This document shows positions 1,583 through 33,800 of a DNA stretch of 64,000 nucleotides, one piece after another. Below the pieces are notes generated by a model. That model searched no databases. It had not been told where the DNA came from and saw only the letters and a program-made list of their open reading frames with translations. Where the stretch lies: the NCBI RefSeq assembly GCF_032678705.1, contig NZ_JAVTSS010000001.1, positions 2,046,001-2,110,000 of the forward strand, given 5' to 3'. The translations under genes were made by a program, and so were the position numbers. Origin of the DNA: Pedobacter frigiditerrae (GTDB lineage: Bacteria; Bacteroidota; Bacteroidia; Sphingobacteriales; Sphingobacteriaceae). Numbering within the stretch: position 1 is the stretch's first letter; every line of letters starts with the position of its first letter.

Positions 1583-3226
1583 TTAATTGGAAAGAAGATC
1601 TTTCAATTTAATTGCTTGAAATATAATGTCTGCCTGGCTACTTTCATAAAAAATTCCTATGGTTTCTTTATCAATACTTGTTAAACAAGAATAGCCCCGT
1701 CCACTGAAATCATCAAGGCGAATTACTTTATTTGATGGCCAAGTCATTCCATTGTCTAAGCTCTGTTTAATACTAATCCTATTTCTGGTTGTTTTTGAAT
1801 CTGGATTTGAAAACAAGAGTAAAGACTTTTGGTGTCCATCTTGTAGATAATCGTGACGAATTAAACTGGCCATACACCCTGGTTCAATTAGCGCATTCCT
1901 CGAAGTTGGATGAACCGACCATGTTTCACCTAAATCTTTTGTGATAGACATTATTCTTCCGTTGCCAACCATTCTGCCCTTATTAGCCCCCGACCGCATG
2001 GTTAGTAAAATTGAGCCATCTTCTAATTCTGCAGCCATATTTTCTGTTGTTGATTCGACAGAAGCTGGATTACTAGTCTTCCATGTTTTTCCTTGATCTT
2101 TACTATAGGTTATATTTGAAAAACCTTTGCCTTTTTTATCCCTTCCCTGTGTTGGAAAAACAAGTGTTCCATCTTTTAATGTAATACCATGACCTGGTGC
2201 AGGAGCTAACAACCACCATTCTTCTCTTTTAATCATTTTTGTTAGGTTAACTGGCTTAGACCAAGTTTTCCCATCATCGGTACTTTTTACAATCATGAAT
2301 TGAGAAGTTTCTTTTACCCCAAAACCTGGCTGTGAGCCTTTGGTCTTCCACTGATGATTCCAGTCGGTGCTCTCATTGGTAAGGTTTTCCAACCATTTAC
2401 CTTCTTCATTTATTACACCATGCATCCACAAACCAGCTATATATATGGCATTGCTGTTTTTATCTACCAAAATGCAAGCGTCAGACACTCCATTAAATTT
2501 TTCAGGTAATCCGCCCCACTCTCCCATATCCATGGCAATTTGTAATGGCTTCCAGGTATTTCCTCCATCCTCACTTCTGTGGATACCTATATCTATATTT
2601 CCTTGCAAGTCTCTACCACTATCACGGCGAGCATCAAAAGTGGCAATTAACGTTCCTTTGTTTGTGGTAACTAGACCAGGAATGCGAGAGGTATGAATGC
2701 CATCTTGCAGATAAGTTCTAACAGCAACGCCTAAACGTTGGCGAAGCTTATCTTGACTCGCCGATGGCTTTATTACTGAGCCATTAACATCAACTTCAAC
2801 AACTTGTGCATCTACAAGGTTATTTAAACCTGCGGTTTCGTTTAGTTCATAAGAAACCCAAAAATAGTTGTCGCCCTTTACTAAAAGCTGATCGCTCTTT
2901 AAGGTAATTTCATTTTTTATTGTAGATGTGGACGATATGAGTTTGCCTTTGCCAGACATTGGATTACCTGGTACAGAATCTTTTCCGTAGTAAAATAAAC
3001 GTATCGTTTTAATTTCTTTAAGCTCGGTAGTTCCATTAGTGCTTAGCACAATGTGGTTTATCTTTTCTCCCTCTTCTACATTCGATAACTTTATCTTAAT
3101 TATTGGATTGTTACTTTTCCCTTTTAATACAGGGAGTTGATATTGTGATACCTCAACTTGAACTACTGGTGTAAATGACTTCAAAAAAAGACACAGGAAA
3201 AGACAAGAAATTTTAAAACAGTTCAT
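1583..3226 (-). CDS. Exo-alpha-sialidase (GH33, BNR repeats) with N-terminal accessory domain (sialidase 1)
   Basis: Hydrolyses terminal sialic acid from glycans, probably in the periplasm or at the surface. A hydrophobic signal segment (about 1-22) is followed by a beta-rich N-terminal domain (about 25-160), as in NanH-type Bacteroides sialidases, and then the propeller. The catalytic signature is present: the RIP arginine (HTSRIPG, R181), a likely acid/base Asp near 206, Glu near 395, Arg in LLTMRSG (411) and the nucleophile Tyr in GRGYSCL (512). Five Asp boxes (S-x-D-x-G-x-T-W) are seen, for example SEDGGNTW and STDDGKTW. It is the last gene of a six-gene minus-strand operon with the NHL, MFS, kelch, DapA-type and dioxygenase genes. 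At 547 aa it is the longest of the six sialidases here because of the N-terminal domain. Confidence 0.93.
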   Translation of the reverse strand: MNCFKISCLFLCLFLKSFTPVVQVEVSQYQLPVLKGKSNNPIIKIKLSNVEEGEKINHIVLSTNGTTELKEIKTIRLFYYGKDSVPGNPMSGKGKLISSTSTIKNEITLKSDQLLVKGDNYFWVSYELNETAGLNNLVDAQVVEVDVNGSVIKPSASQDKLRQRLGVAVRTYLQDGIHTSRIPGLVTTNKGTLIATFDARRDSGRDLQGNIDIGIHRSEDGGNTWKPLQIAMDMGEWGGLPEKFNGVSDACILVDKNSNAIYIAGLWMHGVINEEGKWLENLTNESTDWNHQWKTKGSQPGFGVKETSQFMIVKSTDDGKTWSKPVNLTKMIKREEWWLLAPAPGHGITLKDGTLVFPTQGRDKKGKGFSNITYSKDQGKTWKTSNPASVESTTENMAAELEDGSILLTMRSGANKGRMVGNGRIMSITKDLGETWSVHPTSRNALIEPGCMASLIRHDYLQDGHQKSLLLFSNPDSKTTRNRISIKQSLDNGMTWPSNKVIRLDDFSGRGYSCLTSIDKETIGIFYESSQADIIFQAIKLKDLLSN

Positions 3227-3280: not shown

Positions 3281-4237
3281 TTAAACTCTTATTAGCTTAA
3301 CAGGATAAACCTGATTTGAATTCCACTGAGGCACATACAAATTCTCATCATCATCTACACAAACATCATGTGGATGTATAAAATGTCCAGCTAGTTTTTG
3401 TTGTGGCAACAGTACTCCATTTTCATAAATCGGTTCAGTAGCTCCAGGCGAAGAAATTACTTGATTATGTTCATCTAGTATAGTTAAATACCCTGAACCA
3501 AAATTCTGATTATCACCTGAGCGAAAAACTGCTGCATAAATGTTGTTACCCTTTACAACTGGTCTGCATACAAATGAACCAGGCATATCAATTGTTCCTA
3601 AATATTCTCCAGTAAGAGAAAACTGTTTGAAGGCATTTTGATTTCTTGAGGTTACTAACAGGATATTTTTATCCGCATTGCGATTATCCAAAGCAATTCC
3701 GTGAGCACAATCTAAATTGGAAGGCCCATCACCCCTACCACCAAAATGCCTGATATATTCACCTTTTGCATTGTACTGAATTACAAATTGCAATCCGTAA
3801 CCATCTGTTACATAAATATCGCCATTGGGCATAATTAAGGTTTCAGTTGGTTTATACGTAGCTGCATTTTCGTAATCAGTTATCTCCTTCGGATAAGGAA
3901 TTTCCATTACTACCTTTCCAGCTAAAGTTGTCTTTGCGACAATACTTCTGGCCGTATCAGTGATATAAAGAAATTCTTCTCCGTTTTCATTGTGTAAGGT
4001 TAAACCGTGACCACCCGGATAATCGTGTCCCCAAGAACCCATCACTTTACCATCCTTGTTAAAGATGATTACATTATTTGTGGTTTCATTGCCCAGCATG
4101 TACAACAAGCCGTTAGCAGCCATCACCATCTCATGGCAATCTTTTAAAGGCAATTTTTGGTCTTTGCCAGCTACCCAATCTTTTTTTACACGATATTGGT
4201 AGCCATTATGACCTACAATCTCATCAACACTAGGCAT
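3281..4237 (-). CDS. NHL-repeat six-bladed beta-propeller protein
   Basis: The 318-aa protein shows repeated NHL-type blades (for example NGDIYVTDGYG, HGIALDNRNADKNILLVTSRNQ, HPHDVCVDDDENLYVPQ), resembling peptidyl-glycine alpha-amidating-lyase-like and other NHL propellers. No signal peptide is visible (MPSVDEIVGHNGYQ), so it may be cytoplasmic, unlike most propeller proteins of such loci. Its start overlaps the end of the upstream MFS transporter gene by 8 bp, implying translational coupling and a related job. A catalytic role on a sialic-acid derivative (for example lactone or isomer handling) or a binding role are both possible; neither can be shown from sequence. The fold is clear and the function unknown. 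Confidence 0.75.
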   Translation of the reverse strand: MPSVDEIVGHNGYQYRVKKDWVAGKDQKLPLKDCHEMVMAANGLLYMLGNETTNNVIIFNKDGKVMGSWGHDYPGGHGLTLHNENGEEFLYITDTARSIVAKTTLAGKVVMEIPYPKEITDYENAATYKPTETLIMPNGDIYVTDGYGLQFVIQYNAKGEYIRHFGGRGDGPSNLDCAHGIALDNRNADKNILLVTSRNQNAFKQFSLTGEYLGTIDMPGSFVCRPVVKGNNIYAAVFRSGDNQNFGSGYLTILDEHNQVISSPGATEPIYENGVLLPQQKLAGHFIHPHDVCVDDDENLYVPQWNSNQVYPVKLIRV

Positions 4238-5465
4238 TTTTCTTTATTTTAATAGCCAAAAGTGATAGTGTAGCAATCAGCATCAGCAGAGCCGATACCT
4301 GATATACAACGGCAAGATCAACTTTTGCATCTTTAAGAGCGCCACCAACATAAACCATGATACCACCAACAATTGTGCTGATAAAATTTAGGAAACCATA
4401 TCCAGTAGCGATGTACCTGTTATCAGCGATCTGACGGAGAACAGGCATTAAGTTGGCATCATTTATTCCTCTTGCTATTCCAAATACGAACATCGCTAAA
4501 ATGGCAACGGCAAATACTGTTGTAGATGACATTAAGAATAAAAATGGAGCGCCCACACTAAAGCCAATAACAATCATATATATCCTGCTTTTTTTGTTCT
4601 TTGCAAACCAACGATCTGCCAATATCCCTCCTAAAATCACCCCTACGAAAGAGCCGATTTGTATATAACCTGTTGCAGAGAAACCTGCTTTTCCTGGGTC
4701 AAGGTGAAAATGTTCTTTTAAAAAAGTAGGCAACCATCCATAAACCAACCAGTTTGCCATACCAAGTACACTAAAATAAAATAGTAACACTAAAAAAGAT
4801 TTAGCCTTAAAAAGATTTTTCATCGAACCCCATAAGGAAAGTCGAGGTGAAAGATCAGCTTCACCATCTTCAGCTTCGCCATCTACTGTTTTCTCTACAT
4901 CTTTAAGGTAATAAAGAAGGAAAATTGAATAAAGGATCCCAAATACGCCAAACACTTGAAAACCTGATCTCCATCCATAAAACTCTGCAATGTAACCTCC
5001 AAGTCCACCAAATGCCAGACCAGCGTATAATCCACTCATGTGCAGACCAGTAGCTAAAGAACGTGTTTTTCCTCTGTGGTAATCTGTAATCAATGCCAAA
5101 GCAGCGGGAATATAACAAGCTTCACTTAGCCCCATAAAAAACCTAGAGGCCAACATTTCCTCAAAAGAAGAGGTAAAACCTGTCCACAACGTAACAGCCG
5201 ACCAAATGGAAACACTGAATATGATTACTTTCTTGCGACTGTATTTATCGGCCAAAAAGCCACCAAAAGGGCTCAATAAACCATACGACCATAAAAAAAC
5301 TGAGGTAAGTAAGCCAAATTGAGCATCGGTAAGTCCGAATTCACTTACTATAGGATCTCTCATCGAAGTGATCATGATCCTATCAAAATAGTTAAGGAAG
5401 GCAACTACCCAAAGTAGTGCCACAAGACCCCAAGCGTAATATTTAGAAGGTGTTGTATTAGTCAT
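4230..5465 (-). CDS. MFS transporter, probable sialic acid (or derivative) importer
   Basis: A 411-aa inner-membrane carrier with 12 predicted membrane segments and the MFS loop motif GGFLADKYSRKK (cytoplasmic loop 2-3), repeated as GGILADRWFAKNK after segment 8. The N-terminal FLNYFDR motif and the overall pattern match the anion:cation symporter family, which includes organic-acid and sugar-acid carriers. It sits in the dioxygenase/DapA-type/kelch/NHL/sialidase operon and overlaps the NHL gene. By context it should import sialic acid or a related acidic sugar released in the periplasm, as NanT does in Bacteroides nan loci. The transporter class is certain; the substrate is inferred. Confidence 0.85.
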   Translation of the reverse strand: MTNTTPSKYYAWGLVALLWVVAFLNYFDRIMITSMRDPIVSEFGLTDAQFGLLTSVFLWSYGLLSPFGGFLADKYSRKKVIIFSVSIWSAVTLWTGFTSSFEEMLASRFFMGLSEACYIPAALALITDYHRGKTRSLATGLHMSGLYAGLAFGGLGGYIAEFYGWRSGFQVFGVFGILYSIFLLYYLKDVEKTVDGEAEDGEADLSPRLSLWGSMKNLFKAKSFLVLLFYFSVLGMANWLVYGWLPTFLKEHFHLDPGKAGFSATGYIQIGSFVGVILGGILADRWFAKNKKSRIYMIVIGFSVGAPFLFLMSSTTVFAVAILAMFVFGIARGINDANLMPVLRQIADNRYIATGYGFLNFISTIVGGIMVYVGGALKDAKVDLAVVYQVSALLMLIATLSLLAIKIKKNA

Positions 5466-5487: not shown

Positions 5488-6606
5488 TTATTGATGGATA
5501 GTAACGGTGATTACTCTTGGCGTTCTTATAGCTGGCCTCACTTCACCAGATGGGAATACTAAAAGGTTATTCCACATAACAAGCGATGAGGTAACAGCTG
5601 GCCAAATGCTTCCATTGGGATTAGAGCTTGCATCTGCCTTAATTTCTTTATGGATTTTACCTGCAACAGACCATTGTTTGGTTTTTACATTAAAGGCTAG
5701 TATTTGATCTGAAAACCCAGGATGTTTTTCCTTGAGCCCTGCTGCTTGTTTTGCCAGTGAACCATCATCGCCACCAAAAACTAACAATGAATTTCCGTTT
5801 GCATAAGCAGGGCCAGGAGCTGCCACTACTGCCTTTGGCAGACTGGTTAGTTTTTTCCATCCCTTTCCTGGCTCATAAGAAAAAGCATCAGTCAAGTATT
5901 TCCGCTCTAATTCGCCAGCTGCGTTTTTAAACAAATTAGTTCCACTAAACAGGTAAAATTTACCTGAACAACTTCCAGCCACGGCTAACATTCTAGGTTC
6001 TCCCGGCCAAGTTTCTAACACATTCCAAGTCGCTTTATTACCTTTGGCTAAGTCAATGTTATAAAAAACACTAGCTGCCTCTTGAGCATCAGGCTTTGCC
6101 AAACCTCCAGCAATATAAAGTTTACCTTTTACCAAAGCACCAGACATGTTCGCCAATGGCTGAGGCAAATCTCTCAATTTTTCGATGTGAAGCTCGCCTT
6201 TATGGTAGGAAATGGCATATACTTTTGCCGAATGCCCCAATTCATTGCTACCACCCACACAAATCATTTTTCCATCTATGCTAACTGCAACACCATAACC
6301 CATCGGCTCTGGTAGTTTACCCACCAATTTCCACTCGCCATCTGTTTTATCTAAGGCAAAAACTTTATCTGTCCACACCTTTTTTGAACCTGTCCAGGGA
6401 GCTCCCCCGTCTGGAAAATTCGCACCACCCGCGACAATTAGTGCACCACCAGTAACTCCGCTAAAAGAACCGGCGAAGCCAAATTTATCTGGAATAGCAG
6501 GAAGTTCTCCCCAAGTAAAAGATTGATTTTTATTTAATGTTTGTGCATCTGAAAATGTAATTGTGGAAGTGAGCATGATCAATAGTAAAATTTTTAAATA
6601 TTGCAT
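5488..6606 (-). CDS. Kelch-repeat NanM-like mutarotase/epimerase (secreted)
   Basis: The protein resembles the cyclically permuted kelch mutarotase family related to N-acetylneuraminate epimerase NanM, which interconverts sialic acid anomers after sialidase release. Kelch blades show the typical GG turns (ALIVAGGANFPDGG, MICVGGSNELG, LYIAGGLA, LLVFGGDDGS). I chose the start at the ATG giving MQYLKILLLIMLTS..SDAQ, a good signal peptide; an in-frame ATG 13 codons upstream would bury this behind a polar extension. The mature protein is then periplasmic, about 350 residues. It lies 22 bp upstream of the MFS gene in the same operon, which fits anomer conversion before uptake. Family is clear; activity on Neu5Ac is inferred from context. 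Confidence 0.85.
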   Translation of the reverse strand: MQYLKILLLIMLTSTITFSDAQTLNKNQSFTWGELPAIPDKFGFAGSFSGVTGGALIVAGGANFPDGGAPWTGSKKVWTDKVFALDKTDGEWKLVGKLPEPMGYGVAVSIDGKMICVGGSNELGHSAKVYAISYHKGELHIEKLRDLPQPLANMSGALVKGKLYIAGGLAKPDAQEAASVFYNIDLAKGNKATWNVLETWPGEPRMLAVAGSCSGKFYLFSGTNLFKNAAGELERKYLTDAFSYEPGKGWKKLTSLPKAVVAAPGPAYANGNSLLVFGGDDGSLAKQAAGLKEKHPGFSDQILAFNVKTKQWSVAGKIHKEIKADASSNPNGSIWPAVTSSLVMWNNLLVFPSGEVRPAIRTPRVITVTIHQ

Positions 6607-6682
6607 TTTATATGTATTTAAGCTGATGTTGTGTTTTGCAAACATCCATCAAATCTTTTTATTTTCTTTATTTATGCTGGTT

Positions 6683-7621
6683 TCATATTTCATTGAGCAA
6701 GAAACGTGGCATTAATTGTTCAGCTTTTTTTCTAGCAGCTAAAACATCAGCTTCTGGTATCCATTTGTATGGCCATCTTAATCGTGTAGGCAATTCGCAC
6801 CAACCGCCAACTGCAGCAAGAAATTTATCTAATGCAGGATTTGAATAGCCCATTTTTTGATAAGGCGATATACATTCTGCGAAGAATTCAAGTATAGTAT
6901 TTTCGATTTTTAATGCTTCTTCTAAATCAGTTTGCATCAGATGCCACATTTTTTGAGCAGCTACAGGGTTAATGCAAGCTACATTAGAATAGGCACCATC
7001 GGCTATGCCAGATTTAACTCCTTTGGCTAAAAAATGTCCTGGAACAAATACTGATAAATGTGATGCAAATTCTTTCATTTCCTTAACCCAAGTTTCGTCT
7101 TTGCTTAATACTTTTATTCCAATAAGCGTAGGTACGTTTTCCTTGAATACGTGGAAATCTTTTGGCTGTAATTCTAATTTCGCATGAGGCGGATTATAAA
7201 GCACCAAGGGGATTCCTTTTGCATTTGCTTCAATTCTATTTAAAAAGGAGAGTTGTTCTTCTTCTTTGGCGGTTACCCAATCTGGTAGAATAACCTGAAA
7301 AGCATCTGGCTTTAAATGAACAGCTCTTTTTATTCTTTCTAATGAAATAATTGGCGAGGGATGGCTGCAACCAATTTGAAAACGCATACCTGCTAGCCTA
7401 CATTTTGCAGCCAATAACTCGCTGATTTGATCAAATTCTGCCTCTGTTTGATTATGAAATTCTCCTGCTGTTCCATTTGAATAAATTCCATCAACCCCAA
7501 ATGAGATTAATTTGTCTATTTCTTGTCCCAATAAACCAAAATCTATGGAATCATCGGCAGCTATGGGAAGTAGCAAGGTAGCCCAATTACCTCTTAAGTT
7601 AGTTGCGGTAAGCTTCTCCAT
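6683..7621 (-). CDS. DapA/NAL-family Schiff-base lyase, divergent (second lyase)
   Basis: A 312-aa cytoplasmic TIM-barrel of the dihydrodipicolinate synthase/N-acetylneuraminate lyase superfamily. The Schiff-base lysine is present (LIGIKVLS, K170), as is the family tyrosine (PLVLYNPP, Y142). The pyruvate-carboxylate motif reads GTAGE (50-54) where the family usually has GTTGE or GSTGE, so one hydroxyl side chain is missing. It is clearly different from the canonical lyase at 21.2-22.1 kb, so the locus has two lyase-type enzymes. It is separated by only 3 bp from the dioxygenase gene upstream, suggesting a joint step. The substrate may be a modified nonulosonate or another 2-keto-3-deoxy sugar acid; this is inference. 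Confidence 0.82.
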   Translation of the reverse strand: MEKLTATNLRGNWATLLLPIAADDSIDFGLLGQEIDKLISFGVDGIYSNGTAGEFHNQTEAEFDQISELLAAKCRLAGMRFQIGCSHPSPIISLERIKRAVHLKPDAFQVILPDWVTAKEEEQLSFLNRIEANAKGIPLVLYNPPHAKLELQPKDFHVFKENVPTLIGIKVLSKDETWVKEMKEFASHLSVFVPGHFLAKGVKSGIADGAYSNVACINPVAAQKMWHLMQTDLEEALKIENTILEFFAECISPYQKMGYSNPALDKFLAAVGGWCELPTRLRWPYKWIPEADVLAARKKAEQLMPRFLLNEI

Positions 7622-7624
7622 ATA

Positions 7625-8404
7625 TTATAAATCTGATTCAAAAGCCTCAACTTCAGGGAATTTGGTTTTACCTTTTACTAGTTTACCTAGTCGGGGTTTG
7701 CTATTATTGTATACTTCAATAGCATCCGCATCTGCGTACCTTAGAAAAAGAATTCTACGGTCTCGATCGGCAGAATAGTTTCCATCAGATTTATGCAACA
7801 TCCAACAGTTGAAGATTAACACATCTCCCGCTTTCATTTCCATTGGGATGGCTAAACTTTCATCAGCTTCTACTATAATTTCAGAACCACTTTTTTTCTG
7901 TTCTTCATTTTGTTCTACCCTAATTTGGCCATCTTTATGACTGCCTGGAATTAGCCATAAACAGCCATTACCCTTATCTGTATCATCTAAAGCGGTTAAG
8001 GTAGTTAATGCATTATAAGGTTCAAGTTCGCCATAACCATTGTCTTGGTGCCAACCAAATGGTTTTGTATTGCCACTCATTTTAAAGGTAAGTTGAGAAG
8101 TTGCACCCTTAATATTTGGACCAATTAATTGCGAAGCAATATCAACTAGCGGTCCATTGAAATAATAGGCTTTTACTGTTGGAGATTTATGATGAATATT
8201 AACCAACAATGAGTTTTGAAGCCAACTCTTGTTTGGATCGAAAGATTCTTTCTCTTTGGCCCAAGCTTCCATTGCTTCAGACTGCATTTGTGCCAATCCG
8301 TTTGGGCTTAAAATAGCTCTGATTACCAGATAGCCATTCTCCTTAAAAAAATCGAGCTCGCTATCGGTTAGCCTCTTATAGTTAAAAAGGGTTTCCAAGT
8401 TCAT
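7625..8404 (-). CDS. Phytanoyl-CoA dioxygenase (PhyH)-family Fe(II)/2-oxoglutarate oxygenase
   Basis: A 259-aa soluble protein with the facial triad of Fe(II)/2-oxoglutarate oxygenases: HxD in GWHQDNGYG (H119, D121) and the distal His in WMLHKSDGN (H204), followed by an Arg (DRDRRILF, 216-217) suited to bind 2-oxoglutarate. No signal peptide, so cytoplasmic. It is the first gene of the operon ending with sialidase 1 and lies directly behind a perfect copy of the regulon palindrome. PhyH-family members hydroxylate very diverse small molecules. In this context a hydroxylation or oxidative step on a sialic-acid derivative is the simplest idea, but no such role is established by sequence. Family assignment is strong. 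Confidence 0.87.
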   Translation of the reverse strand: MNLETLFNYKRLTDSELDFFKENGYLVIRAILSPNGLAQMQSEAMEAWAKEKESFDPNKSWLQNSLLVNIHHKSPTVKAYYFNGPLVDIASQLIGPNIKGATSQLTFKMSGNTKPFGWHQDNGYGELEPYNALTTLTALDDTDKGNGCLWLIPGSHKDGQIRVEQNEEQKKSGSEIIVEADESLAIPMEMKAGDVLIFNCWMLHKSDGNYSADRDRRILFLRYADADAIEVYNNSKPRLGKLVKGKTKFPEVEAFESDL

Positions 8405-8486
8405 ATCGTTTATATTTGTATTACACCTATTTGGTAGGCTTTCTCTGCCGCTTATAAGATCATCATCATCTCAATCAGCCGCTAAA

Positions 8487-8520
8487 CAAATATAACAATA
8501 AATCATTATGTACTACATAA
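8487..8520 (-). promoter_or_regulatory. Regulon operator TTATGTACTACATAA plus -7 box (dioxygenase operon)
   Basis: A perfect 15-bp palindrome at 8506-8520. On the minus strand TATATTTG (8487-8494, perfect TAnnTTTG) follows after 11 bp. The promoter drives the six-gene operon from the dioxygenase to sialidase 1. The operator-to-box block is almost identical to the one before the sialidase/sulfatase operon near 17.05 kb. Confidence 0.78.
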
Positions 8521-8559: not shown

Positions 8560-9276
8560 TTATCCGTTCTTTTTAATATCCTGAAGGCGCTCGAAATGTG
8601 GCTTGAGGTGTTCGTACATTCCTTTTTTGAATTCTTCCTTATTACCAGACTTTAAGATGTTTACCAAATCTTGATGGGTAACAGCTCCCGATTTGTATTC
8701 GTTTTCCTTTTCGTTCTGCAACACATAACCAAACACTGGAAGTAGCATATTTTGGAAACGTTTCAAGGTATCATTTCCTGCCATTTCGTAAAGCTTGCCA
8801 TGGAAGGCAACCTCGTTTACAATACGGAATAGTTCTTTATTGTTCTTTTTTTCGTTGGCTACTATTTTTTCCAACTCAAGAATGCTTTTTTCGTTAAGAT
8901 TTAAAAAAAGCACTTCTGCTAAGCCCATTTCTAAGATTAATCTAAGTTCGAACAAATCTTGTAACGCATCCGGACTTATGATTAGCGGATCCATTACACG
9001 TTCAAAACCGCCCAAAACATCAGGACTAGATAAAATCATTCCTCTTTTCTTTTTTGTTTCGATGATACCTAGCATTCTTAGTCTACTGAGCGCTTCACGA
9101 AGCACATTCCTACTCACACCCAAAGCCTCTGCTAATTCTTGCTCTTTTGGTAATGCATCTCCTGGGACGAATGATTTCTTTTTGAAATAATCCCTCAGTT
9201 TTAACTCCACAATGTCGGCCATTGTATCTGTAGGGATTTTTGAAATATGTGTACTTAAATCATTTACTAATGCCAT
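8560..9276 (-). CDS. FadR/GntR-family (FCD) transcriptional regulator, likely regulator of the sialic-acid locus
   Basis: A 238-aa regulator. The N-terminal GntR winged helix (about 20-85) shows LPKEQELAEALGVSRNVLREALSRL, with the recognition helix near 54-66. The C-terminal helical FCD sensor domain (about 100-225) has typical ligand or metal His positions (AFHGKLYEMAGN, THQDLV). FCD regulators bind acidic sugar or organic-acid effectors and recognise TnGTnnnACnA palindromes. Exactly such a palindrome, TTATGTnnnACATAA, recurs in front of the units of this locus and in degenerate form before this gene. I therefore infer that it is the locus regulator, probably a repressor relieved by a sialic-acid catabolite, and autoregulated. 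Confidence 0.88.
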   Translation of the reverse strand: MALVNDLSTHISKIPTDTMADIVELKLRDYFKKKSFVPGDALPKEQELAEALGVSRNVLREALSRLRMLGIIETKKKRGMILSSPDVLGGFERVMDPLIISPDALQDLFELRLILEMGLAEVLFLNLNEKSILELEKIVANEKKNNKELFRIVNEVAFHGKLYEMAGNDTLKRFQNMLLPVFGYVLQNEKENEYKSGAVTHQDLVNILKSGNKEEFKKGMYEHLKPHFERLQDIKKNG

Positions 9277-14363: not shown

Positions 14364-15809
14364 CTAATTCAATCTATAAGTTGATATTTGTTTGCTGAAG
14401 CCAATGATTTGCTTCTTGTATTTTGCGTCAGCTACCACATTATGATTTTCTGCTTGATCAGTACGATAATCATAAAGCTCACGAGCTAAAACCTTATTGG
14501 TTTGTAGTTCAATCCACTCTGTGTAACTAAAATTTGCGGTGTGAATGGTATAGCCCATTATTGCTGGTCTATTGGTGTATGCCATTTGATTTGGAAATTG
14601 ACTAAAGGCTACGCCACTCCCTGTAAAAGGCTTTCCTTTGATAATTTTAGCAAAACTTTGTCCATCTGTATCGGGCTTTTGCAATCCGCAAAGCTCACTT
14701 AATGTGGCGTATAAATCAACAAGCTGAACAACCGAACTTGATTTTTTGCCAACAGCTAATTTTTCTGGGTCAGCGATGATGAGTGGTACTCTTGTGTCTA
14801 ACTTCGAATTGGTGGTTTTACCCCAAAGCCCATGTTCTCCTAGATGGAACCCATGATCACTGAGCAGAACGACAATTGTATTTTTATCTAAATTGAGTCT
14901 TTTTAACTCATTTAGCACTTTACCTACTTGCTCATCCATAAAAGTTACCGAAGTATAGTAGCCTTTAATAAGCTCTGCAGATTTTTTCTCGTCAATTGGT
15001 CCAAGATCTGGAATATCGGTATAACCTCTTAATTCTACGGAGTTGTGTTTGGAGAAATCGGGCACCTTTGTTGCTTTTGCTGTATCTGGCGATAAGGGAA
15101 AAATCCGATTTTGATTCTTTTTCCAATAACTTAGTGGGGCAGTAAAAGGCAAATGAGGGCGACGAAATCCAACGGCCAAGAAAAAAGGTTTGTTACCAAC
15201 TTGATTAAGTTCTTTTATAGCTGCGTCAGCAACCATCCCATCTATATAGGCACTATCAGCAACATCTGCCCATTCTGTAGCGGTAGACTTTGGAGCTTTA
15301 GCTAAGTTTGATTCTAAAGCATATTTACCTTTATTAGTGGTTACAGCCAACAACTCAGGTACACTCCAAGATAATGGATCTTGTGCTACTTTGGGGTCGT
15401 GGTAAATTTTCCCAATCTGCCTGGTGTAATAACCATTGTTTTTAAAATATTGAGGCAATGTAACTACGTTTGGCAACGCTTTCCTGAAATGTGTTTCTAA
15501 ATTCCAAACCTGCGTGTGATCTGGCTTTTTACCAGTCATAAAAGATGCCCTAGATGGTGCACATACTGCCTGCTGACAATAAGCATTTGTAAATAAGGTG
15601 CCATTAGCAGCCAACTGGTCTATATTGGGCGACGAAGCATTTTTATCGTCATAACTGCCTAATGCTGGTCGTAGATCATCAACAACAATGAAGAGTACAT
15701 TGGTTTTCTTCTGCGCCAACACAGGAATAGCGAACAGGACCAGATAAACAAAACAACCGCATCGAAATAACAGTAAGCTAAGTTTTTGTATAAATTTAAA
15801 ATCGGTCAT
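14364..15809 (-). CDS. Secreted sulfatase, iduronate-2-sulfatase-like (family S1)
   Basis: A 481-aa arylsulfatase-superfamily enzyme that removes sulfate esters from sugars in the periplasm or outside. It has a hydrophobic signal segment (about 9-32), the metal-binding NVLFIVVDDLRP (DD at 44-45) and the catalytic signature VCAPSRASFMTG, whose Cys83 must be converted to formylglycine, so a maturase elsewhere in the genome is required. LLSDHGFHLGEHGLWGK provides further metal and sulfate ligands. The VDDLRPALGSYDD start resembles iduronate-2-sulfatases. It lies 28 bp downstream of sialidase 2 and behind the same operator, so sulfate and sialic acid are probably removed from the same glycan. Substrate is not determinable from sequence. 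Confidence 0.88.
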   Translation of the reverse strand: MTDFKFIQKLSLLLFRCGCFVYLVLFAIPVLAQKKTNVLFIVVDDLRPALGSYDDKNASSPNIDQLAANGTLFTNAYCQQAVCAPSRASFMTGKKPDHTQVWNLETHFRKALPNVVTLPQYFKNNGYYTRQIGKIYHDPKVAQDPLSWSVPELLAVTTNKGKYALESNLAKAPKSTATEWADVADSAYIDGMVADAAIKELNQVGNKPFFLAVGFRRPHLPFTAPLSYWKKNQNRIFPLSPDTAKATKVPDFSKHNSVELRGYTDIPDLGPIDEKKSAELIKGYYTSVTFMDEQVGKVLNELKRLNLDKNTIVVLLSDHGFHLGEHGLWGKTTNSKLDTRVPLIIADPEKLAVGKKSSSVVQLVDLYATLSELCGLQKPDTDGQSFAKIIKGKPFTGSGVAFSQFPNQMAYTNRPAIMGYTIHTANFSYTEWIELQTNKVLARELYDYRTDQAENHNVVADAKYKKQIIGFSKQISTYRLN

Positions 15810-21163: not shown

Positions 21164-22114
21164 TTAGTTGGCGATGGCTTGCTCCTGACTCACGATATTC
21201 GCAGGAGCATAAGTTTGAAGCAAATCGAAGAAACCAATTGACTTCAATTCACCATTTAGCTTGTTATAATCAGCATCAGATAATGGAACCAATGGCAATC
21301 TTGCATCGCCAAGATCAAAGCCTAGCATTTTCATGATTGCTCGTTGGGCGGCAATAGATGGATATTTAGCAAAACACAAGATAAAATCTACCACTTTTAA
21401 TTGTAGATCACGTGCTTTGTCAATTTCGTTCGCCTTAAATAATCTTATAATTTCTATGTAAACTGGTGCGGCGAAAGTGTAGGTGCTACCAATTGCTCCA
21501 ACAGCTCCTATAGCAAGTGCACTTAATAATAATTCATCAAAACCAGACAGTACTTCAAATTTACCTTCATTAAAATTTAAGCAAGCTTGAAGTTCATGAA
21601 GTGACGATGCTGTGTATTTTATTCCAGCCAAATTAGGAATACGTTCTTCACCTAGTCTCAAAAACTCTACCATATCCATTCCAACGCCAGTTAATGTAGG
21701 CATGTGATAATAGTAGAATGGCAAGTTTGGCGCTGCAGAAGCAATTTCTGCCATGCAGTTTACCAAATTTGAAACCGAAACAGGCTTAAAATAGAATGCG
21801 GCAACTGATGAAAATGCATCAGCACCAATTTTTTCTGCGTGAATTGCTAATTTTTTACACTCTGCTATTGACGTATGTCCAACATGTACTAAAATAAGAA
21901 TTCGCTTGTTCGCAGCCTTCACATATGCTTCTGCAATAGCCATACGCTCTTCAACAGTCATGTTCGGGCCTTCCCCATTGGTACCACATATATAGATTCC
22001 AGAAATTCCTTCCGATATTAATTTATCTACTAAAGAAGGAATGATTGAAAGATTTAAAGATCCATCTTTCTGATATGCAGCAAATGTTGCAGCTACTATG
22101 CCTGTTATTTTCAT
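21164..22114 (-). CDS. nanA: N-acetylneuraminate lyase (sialic acid aldolase)
   Basis: Cleaves N-acetylneuraminate to N-acetylmannosamine and pyruvate, the first cytosolic step of sialic-acid catabolism. The 316-aa TIM barrel shows the Bacteroidota/animal type of NAL: GTNGEGPNMT motif (44-53), catalytic Tyr136 in PFYYYHMP and Schiff-base Lys166 in LAGIKYT, both in the expected places, plus the LTGVGMDM region typical of sialic-acid lyases. No signal peptide. It has its own operator and -7 box 37 bp upstream and is divergent from the secreted esterase. It is distinct from the DapA-type enzyme at 6.7-7.6 kb. Confidence 0.93.
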   Translation of the reverse strand: MKITGIVAATFAAYQKDGSLNLSIIPSLVDKLISEGISGIYICGTNGEGPNMTVEERMAIAEAYVKAANKRILILVHVGHTSIAECKKLAIHAEKIGADAFSSVAAFYFKPVSVSNLVNCMAEIASAAPNLPFYYYHMPTLTGVGMDMVEFLRLGEERIPNLAGIKYTASSLHELQACLNFNEGKFEVLSGFDELLLSALAIGAVGAIGSTYTFAAPVYIEIIRLFKANEIDKARDLQLKVVDFILCFAKYPSIAAQRAIMKMLGFDLGDARLPLVPLSDADYNKLNGELKSIGFFDLLQTYAPANIVSQEQAIAN

Positions 22115-25749: not shown

Positions 25750-26883
25750 TTAATCGTTATTTCGTTTTTCCAATAGCCATTCCATGTTAAATCTGGCCAA
25801 TGAAACTTTTTGGGGCATGTGTTTTCTTCCGCCGTGCCCATAAAGGCAGATGATACTTTTATCTGGAAGCACTGCTAAGTCCGAATAAGTTGCTCCGCCA
25901 GCTTCTAGCAAACGAGCTATCGGCCAAGTTTTACCTTCATCTTTACTCATTCTAATGCTGAGGTCTTTCCTTTGAGTTGGGTCAACTGGTTGAGAAATAA
26001 GGTAAGTTGTTGGTGAATAATTGGTTAGACCTATATCACAAACCTTACCAGTTAATGCCGTATCATATTGTAAAACCCTAGACCAAGTTACCCCTCCATC
26101 TTTACTCCAAACTTTAGCTTGGTAAGCTCCTGCCTTGGGATTTAAAGTTCTGCCAATTAACAACAAGTCTCCGTTTTGCTGGGACACCAATTGCGACTCG
26201 TTCAACTCTCCAATTGGAGTATCGCCACCAACTTTCCAGCTTTTGCCATGATCATCACTATAAATACAATTAACTCCATAATTCCTTTGTGCTGCTGGAA
26301 ATGTTATCGATTTTCGGTGCCAAATTGGGATAACCAATCTACCATTCTTTAGCTGAATACCATGACCTGGACCCGGTAAATGGAAGGTCCATCCATTTAA
26401 ATTATTTTCAAACAAGGATGTAATTGATTTAGCCTCCGACCAATTCAAACCATCATCTTTACTCACTTTATAGAAAACCTCAGTATGTTTATTTTCGTAA
26501 TTTAAGGCATAAAAAAGAAAGATCTCTTTTGTCTTTCGATTTTGCACAACTGTTGGGTTTGCCCATGATTGTCCACCCTTACTTTCTACCACAACCTGCG
26601 ACTTTGAAAAACTGACACCTTTGTCTGTACTTCTTTTCATGACAATATGATGTGCGCTATCATCAGCACCAGTTGTTATTCTTGCTTCTGCAAACGCAAG
26701 GATGCTACTCTTGCTAGTCACATGTAAACCATATACAAAATAAGCAAAAATGCTATCCTCCTTTTCTTCCCATACCGTTGTTTTATGCAATAACGTTTCC
26801 TTTTCATTAATCCTGCTTTTGAAAGAATGGTTAATGAAAAAAAAGAATGACAGGACCAAAACATTAAGCCTTGTCATTTGCAT
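25750..26883 (-). CDS. Sialidase-like BNR protein lacking the RIP arginine (sialidase 6, divergent)
   Basis: A GH33-type propeller with Asp boxes (a degenerate STDKGVSF, then SKDDGLNW, SDDHGKSW, SKDGGVTW, SKDEGKTW), acid/base-like Asp (GADDSAHH), Glu in LNESQL, Arg in LLLIGRT and Tyr in ATYSDL. The F/Y-R-I-P motif, whose Arg binds the sialic carboxylate, reads YFVYGL in exact alignment with its paralogues. I chose the start giving MQMTRLNVLVLSFFFF.., a signal peptide; a longer frame starting 13 codons upstream would run through the operator palindrome. It heads an operon with the sialate O-acetylesterase and ROK genes. It could be an enzyme with changed specificity or a binding protein. Confidence 0.82.
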   Translation of the reverse strand: MQMTRLNVLVLSFFFFINHSFKSRINEKETLLHKTTVWEEKEDSIFAYFVYGLHVTSKSSILAFAEARITTGADDSAHHIVMKRSTDKGVSFSKSQVVVESKGGQSWANPTVVQNRKTKEIFLFYALNYENKHTEVFYKVSKDDGLNWSEAKSITSLFENNLNGWTFHLPGPGHGIQLKNGRLVIPIWHRKSITFPAAQRNYGVNCIYSDDHGKSWKVGGDTPIGELNESQLVSQQNGDLLLIGRTLNPKAGAYQAKVWSKDGGVTWSRVLQYDTALTGKVCDIGLTNYSPTTYLISQPVDPTQRKDLSIRMSKDEGKTWPIARLLEAGGATYSDLAVLPDKSIICLYGHGGRKHMPQKVSLARFNMEWLLEKRNND

Positions 26884-26899
26884 ACGAAATAATAAGTTA

Positions 26900-26914
26900 T
26901 TATGTAGGTCATAA
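26900..26914 (-). promoter_or_regulatory. Regulon operator TTATGTAGGTCATAA (sialidase 6 operon)
   Basis: Core TATGT-AGG-TCATA has one mismatch. It lies 17 bp before the chosen start of sialidase 6 and argues against the longer upstream start, which would place the operator inside the coding sequence. Confidence 0.62.
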
Positions 26915-27161
26915 TAAAACAAATATGGAGAATTATTTATTACTGTTCCTAATTTTTAGAATTATTTTTTTGAGGGAGGTGAGATGTAATTAAGGTGGGC
27001 AATGTTGTTCGAACACAAAAAGGCAATAAAACCCCTAATAACTAGGTTTCGAAAAACATTGATTTAATTAAATGCGGACTAAAATTATTAAGATTTTGAC
27101 CAAAATAAATTTTTATATTCTTTTAAATCATTGTTTTTTATAAATTCCTGAGACCCGACAA

Positions 27162-27890
27162 CTACAAGACAGTGAACTTGAAAACTGAAGATTCTGATTT
27201 ATTTCCTAATTTGTCTTTTGTTACAATTTTCCAGTAATAAACGGTCGCTGGAGTTACAGAGACAGACAATAATGCACTTACATGATCATTCTTTAACAAT
27301 GGAGGACTCGCAGTTGTTCCGAAGTAGATGTCATAGCTCAGGATGTCAAAGTCTGGATCATCACCCCTCCAAACGAGATTTATTTTTCCGCTGACTGAGG
27401 AAACGCTTGCATCCATCAGAGGTGAAGTCAATTCTGCAGGATATGGGGTAAAGGACGAAGTCGCTTCTCCAGCATTGTAAAATCGCCAAATATCGCTCTC
27501 TAAAGAACTAGAATTCAAACTCGAATTTGTTTTAACCGACCATGAGAATGCTGCGTTTTTTGCTAAAGCTAATTCAATTTGCGTGTTAGTTGTGGTACCA
27601 GTGGTCAACTCAGATGTTACTAAATTCTTAACCGTTATAGCATAATCTTTTACAAAAGCAGAAGCGTTCCATTTAAATGTAATTTTATTCATTGTACTGG
27701 TGTAAGGGACACCCGTGGTGCATAGCTCATCTTTTGCAGGAGCAATCAGCACTGCCTTTGTTGTTTCGTTAGGCTTGGGCGCAGGTGGCACAACTGGTGG
27801 CGGAGTGGGAGTCGGATCTTTAGATTTGCCGCCGCAACTAAACATACAGGATGCCATCGCTATTAAGAATATTGATTTTATATATCTCAT
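27162..27890 (-). CDS. Lipoprotein with proline-rich linker and two FN3-like domains
   Basis: A 242-aa lipoprotein: signal with lipobox CMFSCGG (Cys about 19), a PTPTPPPVVPP linker (about 26-41), then two beta-sandwich units (about 45-145 and 150-242), each with a conserved Trp (FKWNAS, WRGDDPDFD) as in fibronectin type III-like domains. No catalytic motif seen. Its start codon overlaps the stop of the 2109-aa T9SS protein gene by 4 bp, so the two are co-translated, and it may be a surface partner or anchor for that protein. Function unknown. Confidence 0.78.
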   Translation of the reverse strand: MRYIKSIFLIAMASCMFSCGGKSKDPTPTPPPVVPPAPKPNETTKAVLIAPAKDELCTTGVPYTSTMNKITFKWNASAFVKDYAITVKNLVTSELTTGTTTNTQIELALAKNAAFSWSVKTNSSLNSSSLESDIWRFYNAGEATSSFTPYPAELTSPLMDASVSSVSGKINLVWRGDDPDFDILSYDIYFGTTASPPLLKNDHVSALLSVSVTPATVYYWKIVTKDKLGNKSESSVFKFTVL

Positions 27891-30800
27891 TTTTTGATGA
27901 TTTTAGATTGTCTGACCAAATTTTCCGACTCAATTTTTAGCATATATATCCCTGATGTTAAAGTCGATAAATCTAACGAAATCTCCATATTCTCTATAGT
28001 ATGGGCTTTTGAGTAAACTTGTCTCCCATTTAAGTCGTAAACATATACTTTTACAACTCTCTGGTGAAACTCGGATCCAATCTGTACCTTCAAAATTTGT
28101 TCAAATGGATTTGGGTAAGGCATTATACCAGACGCCAATGTTATGCTTTTTTTGATTACACCCTGACAAGCAAGATCTGAGGTTATCATCAAACTATTAC
28201 TCCCAGTGCGAAGTGGCAGCGTAATATCATTATTGCTCGTTGTATAGTTTTTTCCATTGAGTTCAATATGATACGTACTTGCTCCATCCAAATTTAAGGT
28301 CACTGTTTGATCGGCATTTACAATTGATGAAAACAATGTAATGTCTTTTGGCTCTGTAACTACTACTTCAAAACACTGCTTAAAATCTGGGTAACCCGCC
28401 GCTGTAATGCAAATCGTATAATTTGCAGCCTGTAGTGATCCTACTTGTAAATTTGAAGTAAAATTTAACGTCTTGTTGAAACTAGGTCCTGACACTATAG
28501 CCGTATAGTTCATATTGGCTGTAGCGTTAATTTCAATGGATCCGTTATTCGATGACCTACAAGTTTCATTCGTTGCCTTTATTTTAAAATTGGTTTGAGG
28601 TAGTGTATTCAAAACGTTGAACAAAAATGGTTGCGAAACCAACCATTTTTCTTTGTGCTTAATTGCTACAGTATATGATCCAGCCTCGCTAACGGTAAGT
28701 ACGTTTGATGTTGCTCCTGGGATAATGACCCCATTTTTTCGCCATTCATGAATGAAAGAAGACTCGGTATTTGCAGTAAGCTTTAATACGGTACCAAGAT
28801 AGTAAGGCGAATTTTTATCAACTGAAATACCTGGTGCCTTTGCTAAAACAAAGCCTGGCAAACTTGCAGTTCCATAAGTCGTCTGCACTGTAATCTCTCC
28901 AGATCGTAGAAACTCTGATGCAGGAAGCTTCACGGTAATAGTATTGTCATCCACCAAGGTGAAAGGGAAGGAAACTGAGAACCAAACCTTGAATGTTTCT
29001 GTAAAATATTTGCCTTTAATTGTAACTGTTTCACCGATTTCGGCAACCATCGGACTGAAAGACGTTATTATCGGCGGAGGTGTAAATTTAAATTGAAGAT
29101 AATCAAACGAACCTTCATCACTGGTCAAAGTAACAGGACCACTATCTCCTAGGCCAACCACTGCTGTAATCACAGTAGAGGATTCAATCTTAAATGACGA
29201 CGCTTGCACACCACCAAAACTCACTCCTGTAACCGAATTGAAGTTGAAACCGGTTAACGTTATAATTTTTCCTTGTGCACCTGATGTTGAAGACATATAG
29301 CTCAAAACAGGTTTAGTAATCTGTTTACTAGAAAGTACTGCAGAAGAACTGAATTCTGAAAATGTTATGATGTCAGGTTTTCCATCTTCATCAATATCTG
29401 CCGTTATACCTAATATTGGAGTATGCGGCTGTGCATACTTTACACCCTCGGCAAAAGAGATATTTCCAGGCTGACTAGTATTTTTCAAAACTGCAACCGC
29501 ACCGATTGCCCTAAATATATCAGGTTTTCCATCTCCATCTAAATCAGCTAGATTAACAACAGAAATGGCTTCTGTCTCTTTAAGTACCTCTATAGCCGGA
29601 GCAAAGCTAATCGTACTTAAGGTACTGGTATTTCGAAAGGCCAAAATACTGTTGCTAGCTACTAACAATTCAGCTTTGCCATCACCATCAATATCTCCTG
29701 CAACCAAATCTGATCCTGCAGTTGCAATTTGAAAGATTAATGGAGCATCGAATGAAATTTGCCCACCTTGACTTGTGTTTTTAAGGATTACAGCTTGGTG
29801 TGAAGAATTGCTTGTATAAGCCAAATCTATCTTTCCATCACCATTAAAGTCTTGCAAAATCAGTTTTGGAACCCAACCTTGTGCTAACAAATCTACTTGC
29901 TGTCCAAACTTAATGGTTCCTGCGCTACTTTCATTTCTGAAAATAGAGATTTTTTTATTGCTGTAGTATGATATTACAACATCTGTTTTACCATCATTAT
30001 CTACATCACCTACTTTGATATCTGACAATGAATGATCATTCTCTCCATCTACAGCAAAATCCAATTGAGTGAGTGAGATTTTACCGGGAACGGAAGTGTT
30101 TTTAAATACATGAAACTGATAATAGCTATAAACCACTAAATCCATTTTTCCATCTCCATCTATATCGGTAACAAGACTGGTTTCGGCCTGATTGATCATT
30201 GGGATGACTAATGGCGCATCGTAGATGGTTTGTCCATTTTTTTTACCAGCACGATAGATATGTAAAGACTTATCGTTGAAATTATTCAGGCTGTAGATGA
30301 AATCCATTTGACCATCACCATCCAGATCTGCCACTGTCCCCTTTTTATAAGTGGAATGAGGACGAATTGCAGGTGCAAAAGATTTTTCAGTAAAACCACT
30401 TTGGTCACCTGCGAAGGTAAGTACAAAAGAATTGATACTAGATCCAATCAAACCATTGGAAGTCACCGATATCGGTGCATAGGTCGCTTTAGATGGTACG
30501 GTGACAGTAAGCGTAGTAGAAGTGGCAGCAGTGACCGTTCCATATGCTAAACCGAACAATACTTTATTTTCTGAGATGTTTTCGCTAAAATTTTTACCTG
30601 ATATAACGATGGACGTTCCTGCATTAGCCTTCACTGGGAAAAACGAACTGATGATTGGAGGTAGACCGTATGAAAAGCCAGGTAAGGTTGATGAGCCAAA
30701 AGAATTGGCTATAGTGACTGATCCACTTGCACCGTCGCCAACCGTGGCGGTTATCTGCGTTGGAGAGTCGATTATAAATTTGGCAACTGGCAATCCGCCT

Positions 30801-33800
30801 AGGTTAACAGTACTCACTCCAGTAAAGTTTGTACCTGTAATAACTACGACATCACCTTTTTTAGCAATTGAAGGAGTAAAAGAAACTAAAAATGGAGACT
30901 TATTGACTTTGTTTTTTAGATAGGAAATCTTAGCGTTTCCTTCGCTCTGGAAAACAATGTCTGGTTTGCCATCTTGATCAATATCGCCTGCACTAATTGT
31001 TTTTACATTGCTGAGTGTTGCAAACATCACTTTCTGCGCTAACTTAGGGCTTCCAGTTGAACTGATATTTTTTAAAACAGATGCAGATTTGTCTACCTCA
31101 CTATAAAATAGTACGTCTATCAATCCATCACCATCCAGATCGTGAATAGACAGACTTGTTGGACGGCTTCCTACCGGATATTTCAATGGTGTAGCGAACG
31201 CAAAAGAGTTATTACCTGTGTTTTTATAAACATTTAATTCGTTAAGATTATTGCTTATCGTGACTAAATCAATTTTGCGGTCTCCATCAATGTCTGCCGC
31301 CACAAATTCTGATGGCCTGCTCGTTGGAATCTCTAGCACTTTTGTAAAAGAAATTTTGTCTAAGGTACTTTCGTTTTTATAAACATCGAGTTTATTTAGC
31401 GTGGAGCTACTGTCATAGGTGATCATATCTAGCTTACCGTCATCATCAAAATCCGCAATTTCTACAATTGGCCCAAAAATCTCATCGTAATTTGCAAAGC
31501 TAATGTTGCCAGGGCTAGATGTATTTTTTCTGATTAATCCACCTGTAACGAAATCAGGTTTCCCATCTCCATCAATGTCCCTGAACCCAAAATACGGGTT
31601 GTTGACGCTAGAAAGAACGTTTGGCGAAGCCAAAAAGGAGATCTTTCCAGGACTTGAAGTATTCTGATAGATGAAAACCCCTGGGTACACGTATCGATCG
31701 CAGATTACCATATCTGGCTTTCCATCGCCATCCATGTCTTTTGCGCTAAAAATAATTTCCGACGATTGAAAAAATAAACTAGTCTTTTCATCGAACTTAG
31801 CCTCGCCAGCAATTCCTTTGTTGCGGTAGAATGCCACTTCGTTGGTGTTAATACTTCCTTTGATAAGCAAAACGATATCTAAAAAACCATCTCCATCAAA
31901 ATCATAGAGTTTAAAATCACTTGGTTTTCCTATTATGGGAAGATAAATTTTATCGGCAAAGGATTCGCTGCTAATGCTATTTTCGCTACTTAAAGTCTTT
32001 ACGAATGGTGTTTTTCCATCTGCCGTGAGCGAATTTGTAGTTACAGAAAGGGGTTTGAAGGTAGAAATTGCAGGAACCTCCACTGTTAAAGCCGTAGCAG
32101 TAGCGTTAATCACCTTTCCTTTAATGTCACCGAACAACACAATATTCCCATTAATGTCATTACTAAAGTTCGACCCGGTAATAGTTATGCTACCTCCGCT
32201 TGTACTGAAACGCGGACTGAAGTCATTGATTTTTGGAGGGTTGTAAAAGGTAAAGCCAGGCAAGGAATGTGTGCCATTTTTGGTTGTAACGATTACAGAA
32301 CCACTACTCGAAGCTCCCACAACCGCCGAAATCATGGTTGTATTTATCACAGTAAAGGACTTAACCGCTGTATTGCCAATACTAACTGCCGTAGCCCCTA
32401 AAAATCCAGCCCCTTTAATAACTACGATCTCTCCATTTGTACCACTTGTTGGGGTAAATGATTCAATGGTGGGCAGCATATTGAATCCTAGCAATGCAAT
32501 AGTACCTCCCAAGGATGTTACGGCCACGCTTCCGGATTCGCCAACGCCAACTACCGCATCAATCCTTGTGGGAGAAACTACAGAGTATGACATTACTGGC
32601 ACCCCTCCAAATGTTACTGCTGTAACATTAATGAAATTGCTACCATTAATGGTAACAGTTCTCCCTTTAGTCGCACTTGTAGGTGCAAAAGATGTAATGG
32701 TTGGAGGGGGAAGATAGTTAAAGCCTGCCATCACTGAAAAGCCGCTTGGACCTGCCACATAAACTTCTCCAGATTTTCCGGCACCCACTTTTGCCATAAT
32801 AGTAGTGGGAGAAACAACAGTAAACGACGAAGCATTTGTTCCTCCAAAGGTTACCTTGGAAGCTCCTGTAAAGTTTATTCCTGTTATTGTAACTATTGAA
32901 TTTAATCCAGCATCTTTCGGAGAAAAATCCATAATTTGAACACCCTGCTGAAGCAAGATCTCCTTCGTTAACGAAGCAGTCTGTATACCGCTTGTAACCA
33001 CCAAGGTAATTTTGTTTTTTAGGTTAAAATTATCCCTTTGAAAATTTACATCGTAGGAAGTTGCAATGACCACATCATTTAGCAACCATTTGAAACTGTA
33101 ATCTGACTTTGAAAAATTCAACAACTTTACGGTATTTGTTGTTGATAATGTACTGAGATCTATCCCAAACACTGGTCGGAGAATGGGCACACCCCCGCCA
33201 TTTGTTGTTGATTCTATAAAACCATAACCACCACCAACCCAAAAATTGTCCTTATCCCAAAACTGAGCATCATAATGAGTGTAACTCAGATAACTAAAGT
33301 TATTATCCCGAGGTAATTGTTCCCAGTTTTTGCCCCCATTTGAAGTTTTATATATGATATAGTCAGGGCCAATGGCATAGCCTAGGTTGTCGTCAAAAAA
33401 TTTTATTTTAGTAAAATACAAGGGATCGTATTCCGCATTGTTTTTTAAGTCCCAAGTATTTCCTCCATCAGCACTGGAATATAGGTAACCACCGTAATCT
33501 TCAAGATTTAACCAAACTTTTGCCGAGCTTAAATGAGTTGCACTTTTTATTATTCCATTAAAACCAGTTGGGAGCTTAAGTTTGGTAAATGAAACGCCGC
33601 TATTGGTAGATCGAATGACTTCTCTAGCACCAACAGCTGCCACAAAAGTACCTGAAGCCTCAATTTGCTTGTAGTATGATCCTGTGGAAAGATAGATACT
33701 TACCCATGTTTGGCCCTTGTTGGTCGTTTTAAGTATGCGATCCTCATCAATGGCATAGCCAATGTTACCATTGTCGGGAAACACCATATCTATCATATAA

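Follow-up and report, generated by a model that had tools for sequence, protein, structure and literature searches.

Why should a sialidase operon carry an Fe(II)/2-oxoglutarate (2OG) oxygenase and a second, divergent lyase when a canonical N-acetylneuraminate lyase (NanA) is encoded in the same locus? This question is raised by a 64-kb stretch of the genome of the soil Bacteroidota member Pedobacter frigiditerrae (hereafter the window; the genome, G000, measures 4.85 Mb and is 97.7% complete), in which genes for a PhyH-type oxygenase and a DapA-type lyase open an operon that ends with a sialidase gene. We use 'DAP' as a working name for this lyase and 'PhyH-A' for the window-type PhyH. Our analysis suggests that both proteins very likely belong to sialic acid catabolism, of which they probably form a side branch that is so far undescribed. 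The reading that we favour, with a probability of roughly 45%, is that DAP serves beside NanA as a second lyase, cleaving a nonulosonate poorly handled by the latter, and that PhyH, with or without the NHL propeller protein of the same operon, removes a modification. Usually, sialic acid breakdown is treated as the single path NanA, NanE, NanK. If our reading is true, modified or non-mammalian nonulosonates would be used by a separate and widespread enzyme set, and many genes of rhizobia and Bacteroidota presently named 'dihydrodipicolinate synthase family protein' could be better annotated.

The open reading frame map bears out the gene order given in an earlier note on this DNA, with PhyH and DAP followed by the NanM-like, MFS, NHL and sialidase genes (Table 1). 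The 3-bp spacing between PhyH and DAP (7622-7624) and the perfect operator upstream, both of which the note had pointed out, are seen in the sequence, the palindrome standing 102 bp ahead of the PhyH start. The interval assigned there to the pair (5488-8520) does contain PhyH and DAP, but it also includes the NanM-like gene. Six sites matching the 15-bp palindrome TTATGTANTACATAA with at most one mismatch are present in the window, against approximately 0.07 expected, and all of them lie 22-115 bp upstream of the starts of PhyH, SusC, sialidases, NanA and an esterase. These shared operator sites imply that one signal governs PhyH, DAP and NanA, and this sequence evidence places PhyH and DAP in the nan (sialic acid) regulon. 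The canonical nanA, previously described as lying elsewhere in the locus, is indeed present, but it is not merely elsewhere, as it has an operator of the same regulon. The GntR/FCD protein encoded in the window is the probable regulator of the palindrome sites.

As judged from its sequence, DAP is a distinct and conserved branch of the N-acetylneuraminate lyase (NAL) superfamily and not a NanA. Its match to PF00701 (57.6 bits, cut-off 22.1) places it in the DHDPS/NAL superfamily; its scores lie far below the cut-offs of the NCBIfam equivalogs for NanA (43 bits for a cut-off of 382, and 40 bits for a cut-off of 281) and for DapA (55.3 bits, cut-off 206). The AlphaFold2 model (predicted local distance difference test, pLDDT, 94.6) has a (beta/alpha)8 fold, and the closest solved fold found by Foldseek is that of E. 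coli NanA (EC 4.1.3.3; 1NAL, 4BWL; TM 0.81-0.85), although the identity is only about 21%. DAP further resembles NanA in its Schiff-base lysine, catalytic tyrosine, carboxylate-binding Thr/Glu and gene context. The window protein keeps Lys170 and Tyr142 and carries the motifs GTAGE (present as the note had claimed), LPDW, YNPPHAK, PGH and LRWPY. A scan of genome contigs recovered 247 relatives; 80 loci were retained for counts and alignment. The Schiff-base Lys165 and Tyr137 (NanA numbering), as well as the carboxylate-binding Thr and Glu, are conserved in 80/80 aligned sequences; because the lysine, the tyrosine and the carboxylate-binding motif are all kept, DAP is likely to form a Schiff base with a 2-oxo acid. 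In contrast, the sialate-binding Asp191, Glu192 and Ser208 of NanA give way to Gly, His and Asn in 79-80 of the 80 DAPs (Glu192 by His in 79/80), Tyr110 has become Trp and Thr167 is not conserved, whereas the true NanA proteins from the same loci retain the NanA-type sialate-binding residues. H146, K148 and LRWPY are additionally conserved in DAP. This pattern suggests that DAP does not read the sugar tail in the way that NanA does.

DAP is rare, being found in 5 of the 296 Bacteroidota genomes of our phylum sample and in 2 of 289 genomes within the class of a DAP-positive Ensifer genome; the closest relatives of the window protein come from Pedobacter species. The 80 loci (gene content was mapped by profiles in the GC-rich ones) include 44 with a true NanA, 47 with a sialidase and 40 with NanM, at least one of these three being present in 49; the expected frequency of NanA in random 21-kb stretches of the phylum is about 0.04%, with about 0.03 expected in 60 of them. 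Another DHDPS protein ('DHDPS1') is encoded in 19. The transporters are SusCD and MFS in Bacteroidota, a TRAP system in Sinorhizobium meliloti, where the operon reads NanR-SiaP-TRAP-TRAP-DAP-NanA with a true NanA, and a peptide-type ABC transporter in the Rhizobium loci, which also contain another DHDPS protein. The gene neighbourhoods show DAP in the company of NanA, NanM, sialidases and transporters of the sialic acid type across several phyla. Rhizobiales and Larkinella DAP loci occur without classical sialidases, and in Larkinella and in genome G033 DAP stands beside divergent BNR-type hydrolases with no NanA. The presence of DAP with BNR proteins but without NanA favours a function parallel to that of NanA, for which we see about an even chance. 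The nearly constant adjacency of a second DHDPS protein (44 NanA and 19 DHDPS1) could also be taken to mean that DAP, instead of being a lyase, serves NanA as partner or sensor, in a hetero-oligomer or as a pseudo-enzyme, and the loss of Tyr110 and Thr167 would fit this idea. Such a role is nevertheless very improbable, as all 80 sequences retain the complete Schiff-base machinery and DAP loci without a partner exist.

Several further observations concern the neighbourhoods of DAP. Rhizobial plasmids (L214, 5568-12942; L043, 19-5661) carry next to DAP a peptide-type ABC transporter and a non-NanA DHDPS protein with a GSE...VPG motif; a true NanA was rejected for the rhizobial DAP loci, their partner being by its residues a different DHDPS. 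The same set stands beside NanM in Pelomonas and may be a nonulosonate transporter system. Sulfatases are encoded next to or near DAP in five loci (L010, L058, L067, L076 and L086) and at 14364-15809 in the window, so that sulfated sialic acids are possible substrates. Downstream of DAP, Larkinella encodes a sugar-acid dehydratase of the enolase superfamily (L040, 13062-14327) and a D-2-hydroxyacid dehydrogenase (L039, 10923-11894).

PhyH-A is, by family and residues, a predicted Fe(II)/2OG oxygenase: the iron triad (H119-x-D121 ... H204) and the 2OG-binding Arg214/216 are invariant in 20 relatives, and no signal peptide was seen in the protein. The folds closest to its AlphaFold2 model (pLDDT 86.5) are those of SnoK, MysH, proline hydroxylase H11, GriE and EvdO1, a resemblance that does not indicate the substrate. 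PhyH-A shares its fold and HxD...H plus Arg site with SnoK, EvdO1, proline hydroxylase H11, MysH, EctD and PHYH, but differs from the solved PhyH-type oxygenases by its low identity (approximately 15-23%) and its sialidase-operon context. Its relatives, 60-83% identical, were detected in 12 of 395 genomes of the family and in 4 of the 296 genomes of the phylum sample, all four being among the five DAP genomes (Fisher 1.6e-8, kinship ignored). The earlier note would have been undermined if the two genes were equally common away from sialidases; the outcome favours the note, as every PhyH-A copy whose surroundings were read over about 10 kb lies close to one (the window, L012-L015, L018-L020, L026, L028, L034, L041, G122, G162 and further loci). 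In G894 and G858, where short stretches were read, PhyH-A is accompanied by SusD, DAP and NanA. In G122, PhyH is found with a sialidase and the NHL protein away from DAP, and the operator core also precedes this separate sialidase-PhyH-NHL operon, which indicates that separation from DAP does not take PhyH out of the regulon.

A second subfamily, PhyH-B, only about 25% identical to PhyH-A, is encoded in DAP loci of Bacteroidota, of Pelomonas and of the small alphaproteobacterial genome G505, that is, in three classes. The Pelomonas locus combines NanM, DAP, DHDPS1, an AGE-family protein, an aldo/keto reductase and PhyH-B; that of G505 (L222, 1195-15221) brings together two PhyH-B, DAP, NanA, NanE, NanK and an ABC transporter. 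The PhyH genes of this dense and unusual nonulosonate locus are arranged in tandem, and it also encodes BCAT-like and M81 proteins, two BNR proteins and a NanA-NanE-NanK-ABC operon. The occurrence of two independent PhyH lines in DAP loci makes a chance passenger unlikely. This bears on the proposal of an ordinary 2-keto-3-deoxy-sugar-acid aldolase or dehydratase function for DAP, with PhyH as an unrelated passenger that reached sialidase operons by chance. The DHDPS superfamily is rich in such enzymes, and such a role would suit the rhizobial loci, in which DAP is accompanied by a further DHDPS and a peptide-type ABC transporter. We nonetheless regard this proposal as improbable, given the two PhyH subfamilies in different classes, the proximity of PhyH-A to sialidases in every context read, together with the shared operator, and the pairing of DAP with NanA alongside unrelated transporters.

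The conserved sialic acid context of both genes, which extends beyond the one window, supports the dedicated side branch envisaged in the earlier note. PhyH-A genomes are a subset of the DAP genomes in the phylum sample, so that a conserved pairing holds in this direction, but the pair is not obligate, DAP being much wider. PhyH was detected in only about 14 of the 80 DAP loci, and the label 'PhyH nearby' switches seven times on the DAP tree, as expected for an accessory that comes and goes. PhyH also occurs away from DAP, and the idea of the two genes as one fixed two-step path finds no support. DAP is the wide, NanA-linked enzyme and PhyH the narrower, sialidase-linked one. We found no description of such a PhyH-based step in the open literature (subscription journals were outside the scope), in agreement with what had been claimed.

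What could PhyH do in such a branch? A lead is provided by the NHL protein, which besides the window is encoded in five PhyH loci (L012, L019, L028, L041 and L096 of G122) and adjoins PhyH in L028, L041 and G122. The copies of the PhyH loci form, with that of G033, a group without N-terminal extension. Relatives in other contexts carry such an extension, as read from their sequences, and several have DUF1501 or cytochrome-like neighbours. Among solved structures, the longest single-stretch match is to peptidyl-alpha-hydroxyglycine lyase (PAL, 3FVZ; positions 80-234, 56 bits in total), which TRIM-type NHL structures outscore only as sums of short repeat matches. All 22 relatives compared share His35, His77, His179, His290, Tyr147, Arg186 and Arg198, a set resembling that of PAL, whose zinc-binding histidines and catalytic Tyr and Arg may be their counterparts. 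In PAM, PAL is the lyase half of peptidylglycine amidation and is joined to the hydroxylase PHM, so that hydroxylase and NHL propeller protein recur in the PhyH-NHL set; the PAM hydroxylase is however a copper enzyme, whereas the one considered here is predicted to be 2OG-dependent and cytosolic, and the analogy serves as a lead only. A hydroxylase with a PAL-like lyase would follow the logic of oxidative N- or O-dealkylation. According to this scheme, PhyH would oxidize the imported sugar and thereby strip a modification; an O-alkyl or N-acyl group, hydroxylated at the position adjoining the heteroatom, is one example. The hydroxylated intermediate may then be cleaved by the NHL protein, in the way that PAL follows PHM, and the freed sugar acid would pass to DAP or NanA. 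DAP would be a second lyase for 2-oxo acids, and its substrate a nonulosonate, plain or modified, that is poorly handled by NanA. That PhyH acts before cleavage is a tentative suggestion, slightly short of even odds, and oxidative dealkylation as its specific reaction appears somewhat unlikely.

The window locus resembles the Bacteroidetes nan operons (nanLET, NanOU) and E. coli nanATEK-yhcH in its sialidase, SusCD-type uptake, NanM, MFS, NanA and regulator, but differs from them by the additional DAP, PhyH and NHL genes and by the lack of NanE or AGE in both locus and genome. No AGE (PF07221) was found in the window genome despite NanA and several sialidase-like genes, and its only match to the NanE family (PF04131) was rejected as it corresponds to GuaB. 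The textbook sialic acid path thus has a gap in this genome at the N-acetylmannosamine (ManNAc) epimerase step. A NanE-type AGE is encoded in none of the 80 DAP loci, whereas 8 of 18 NanA-positive, DAP-negative genomes encode an AGE at most 10 kb from NanA, and 8 of 46 Bacteroidota DAP genomes lack both AGE and NanE, the PF07221 matches in the rest being only partly classified. A part of the DAP carriers must therefore handle ManNAc differently or live on sugars from which none is formed, such as 2-keto-3-deoxynononic acid (KDN).

It is thus tempting to ask whether the new genes bypass the epimerase. An oxidative nonulosonate branch in which PhyH and the PAL-like NHL protein would strip a modification or N-acyl group through hydroxylation beside the heteroatom, and DAP, as a lyase of a new 2-oxo-acid class, would cleave the product, removing the need for a ManNAc epimerase, seems unlikely. 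Alternatively, NanA could act first, the resulting ManNAc (or mannose) being oxidized and losing its N-acyl group via PhyH and the PAL-like NHL protein, and DAP cleaving the resulting 2-oxo aldonate. The missing epimerases and the likeness of NHL to PAL would agree with this sequential route, as would the dehydrogenases or enolase-superfamily sugar-acid dehydratase of some loci. We consider it decidedly unlikely, as the window regulon contains no ManNAc dehydrogenase, most DAP-NanA loci lack PhyH and NHL, and DAP also occurs in NanA-free loci and, in G505, beside NanE and NanK. The same observations, with AGE missing from every DAP locus and both AGE and NanE missing from several DAP genomes, might mean that DAP itself replaces the ManNAc 2-epimerase, with a Schiff base at C1 of ManNAc. 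This is quite improbable because the kept carboxylate-binding GTxGE predicts a 2-oxo acid substrate and DAP coexists with NanE and NanK in G505; DAP also coexists with AGE elsewhere in many genomes, and it exists without NanA.

Several observations weigh against the side branch with a parallel lyase that we prefer. The variable Thr167 equivalent and the Trp at Tyr110 make retro-aldol activity of DAP uncertain, and DAP could be a dehydratase. Within the stretch read, 31 of the 80 DAP loci have no NanA, sialidase or NanM, 18 of these having only DHDPS1. Most DAP loci lack PhyH, so that PhyH and DAP need not share one substrate, and the PhyH copies inside one family may reflect whole-locus transfer. 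Finally, the NHL family also occurs in genomes or loci with no sialidase in view.

Table 1. Features of the window discussed in the text (window positions).
Feature	Position	Strand	Support
Sialidase with BNR_assoc_N domain, final gene of the PhyH-DAP operon	1583-3226	-	domain match
NHL/6-bladed propeller protein, PhyH-DAP operon, without N-terminal extension	3281-4237	-	
MFS transporter, PhyH-DAP operon	4230-5465	-	PF07690, 208.5 bits
NanM-like kelch protein (N-acetylneuraminate epimerase family), PhyH-DAP operon	5488-6645	-	PF24996 NANM, 130 bits
DAP, divergent N-acetylneuraminate-lyase-superfamily protein, 312 aa	6683-7621	-	PF00701 (DHDPS), 57.6 bits
PhyH-A, predicted Fe(II)/2OG oxygenase, 259 aa	7625-8404	-	PF05721, 114.7 bits
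Operator, perfect 15-bp palindrome TTATGTACTACATAA, ahead of the PhyH-DAP operon	8506-8520	-	
GntR/FCD regulator	8560-9276	-	best NCBIfam match NanR, 82.6 bits, under cut-off
Further operator sites (at most one mismatch), just upstream of nan-regulon genes	14312, 17055, 18314, 18386, 22204		
Canonical NanA-type lyase, GFDE and GSTYT motifs	21164-22114	-	PF00701 (DHDPS), 187.4 bits

Two other proteins of the window deserve mention. In a sialidase-like protein (25750-26922), VYG stands near the N-terminus in place of the usual RIP arginine motif, so that one residue of the arginine triad is seemingly lost. A 2109-aa exported-looking repeat protein (27887-34216) adjoins the sialidase cluster.

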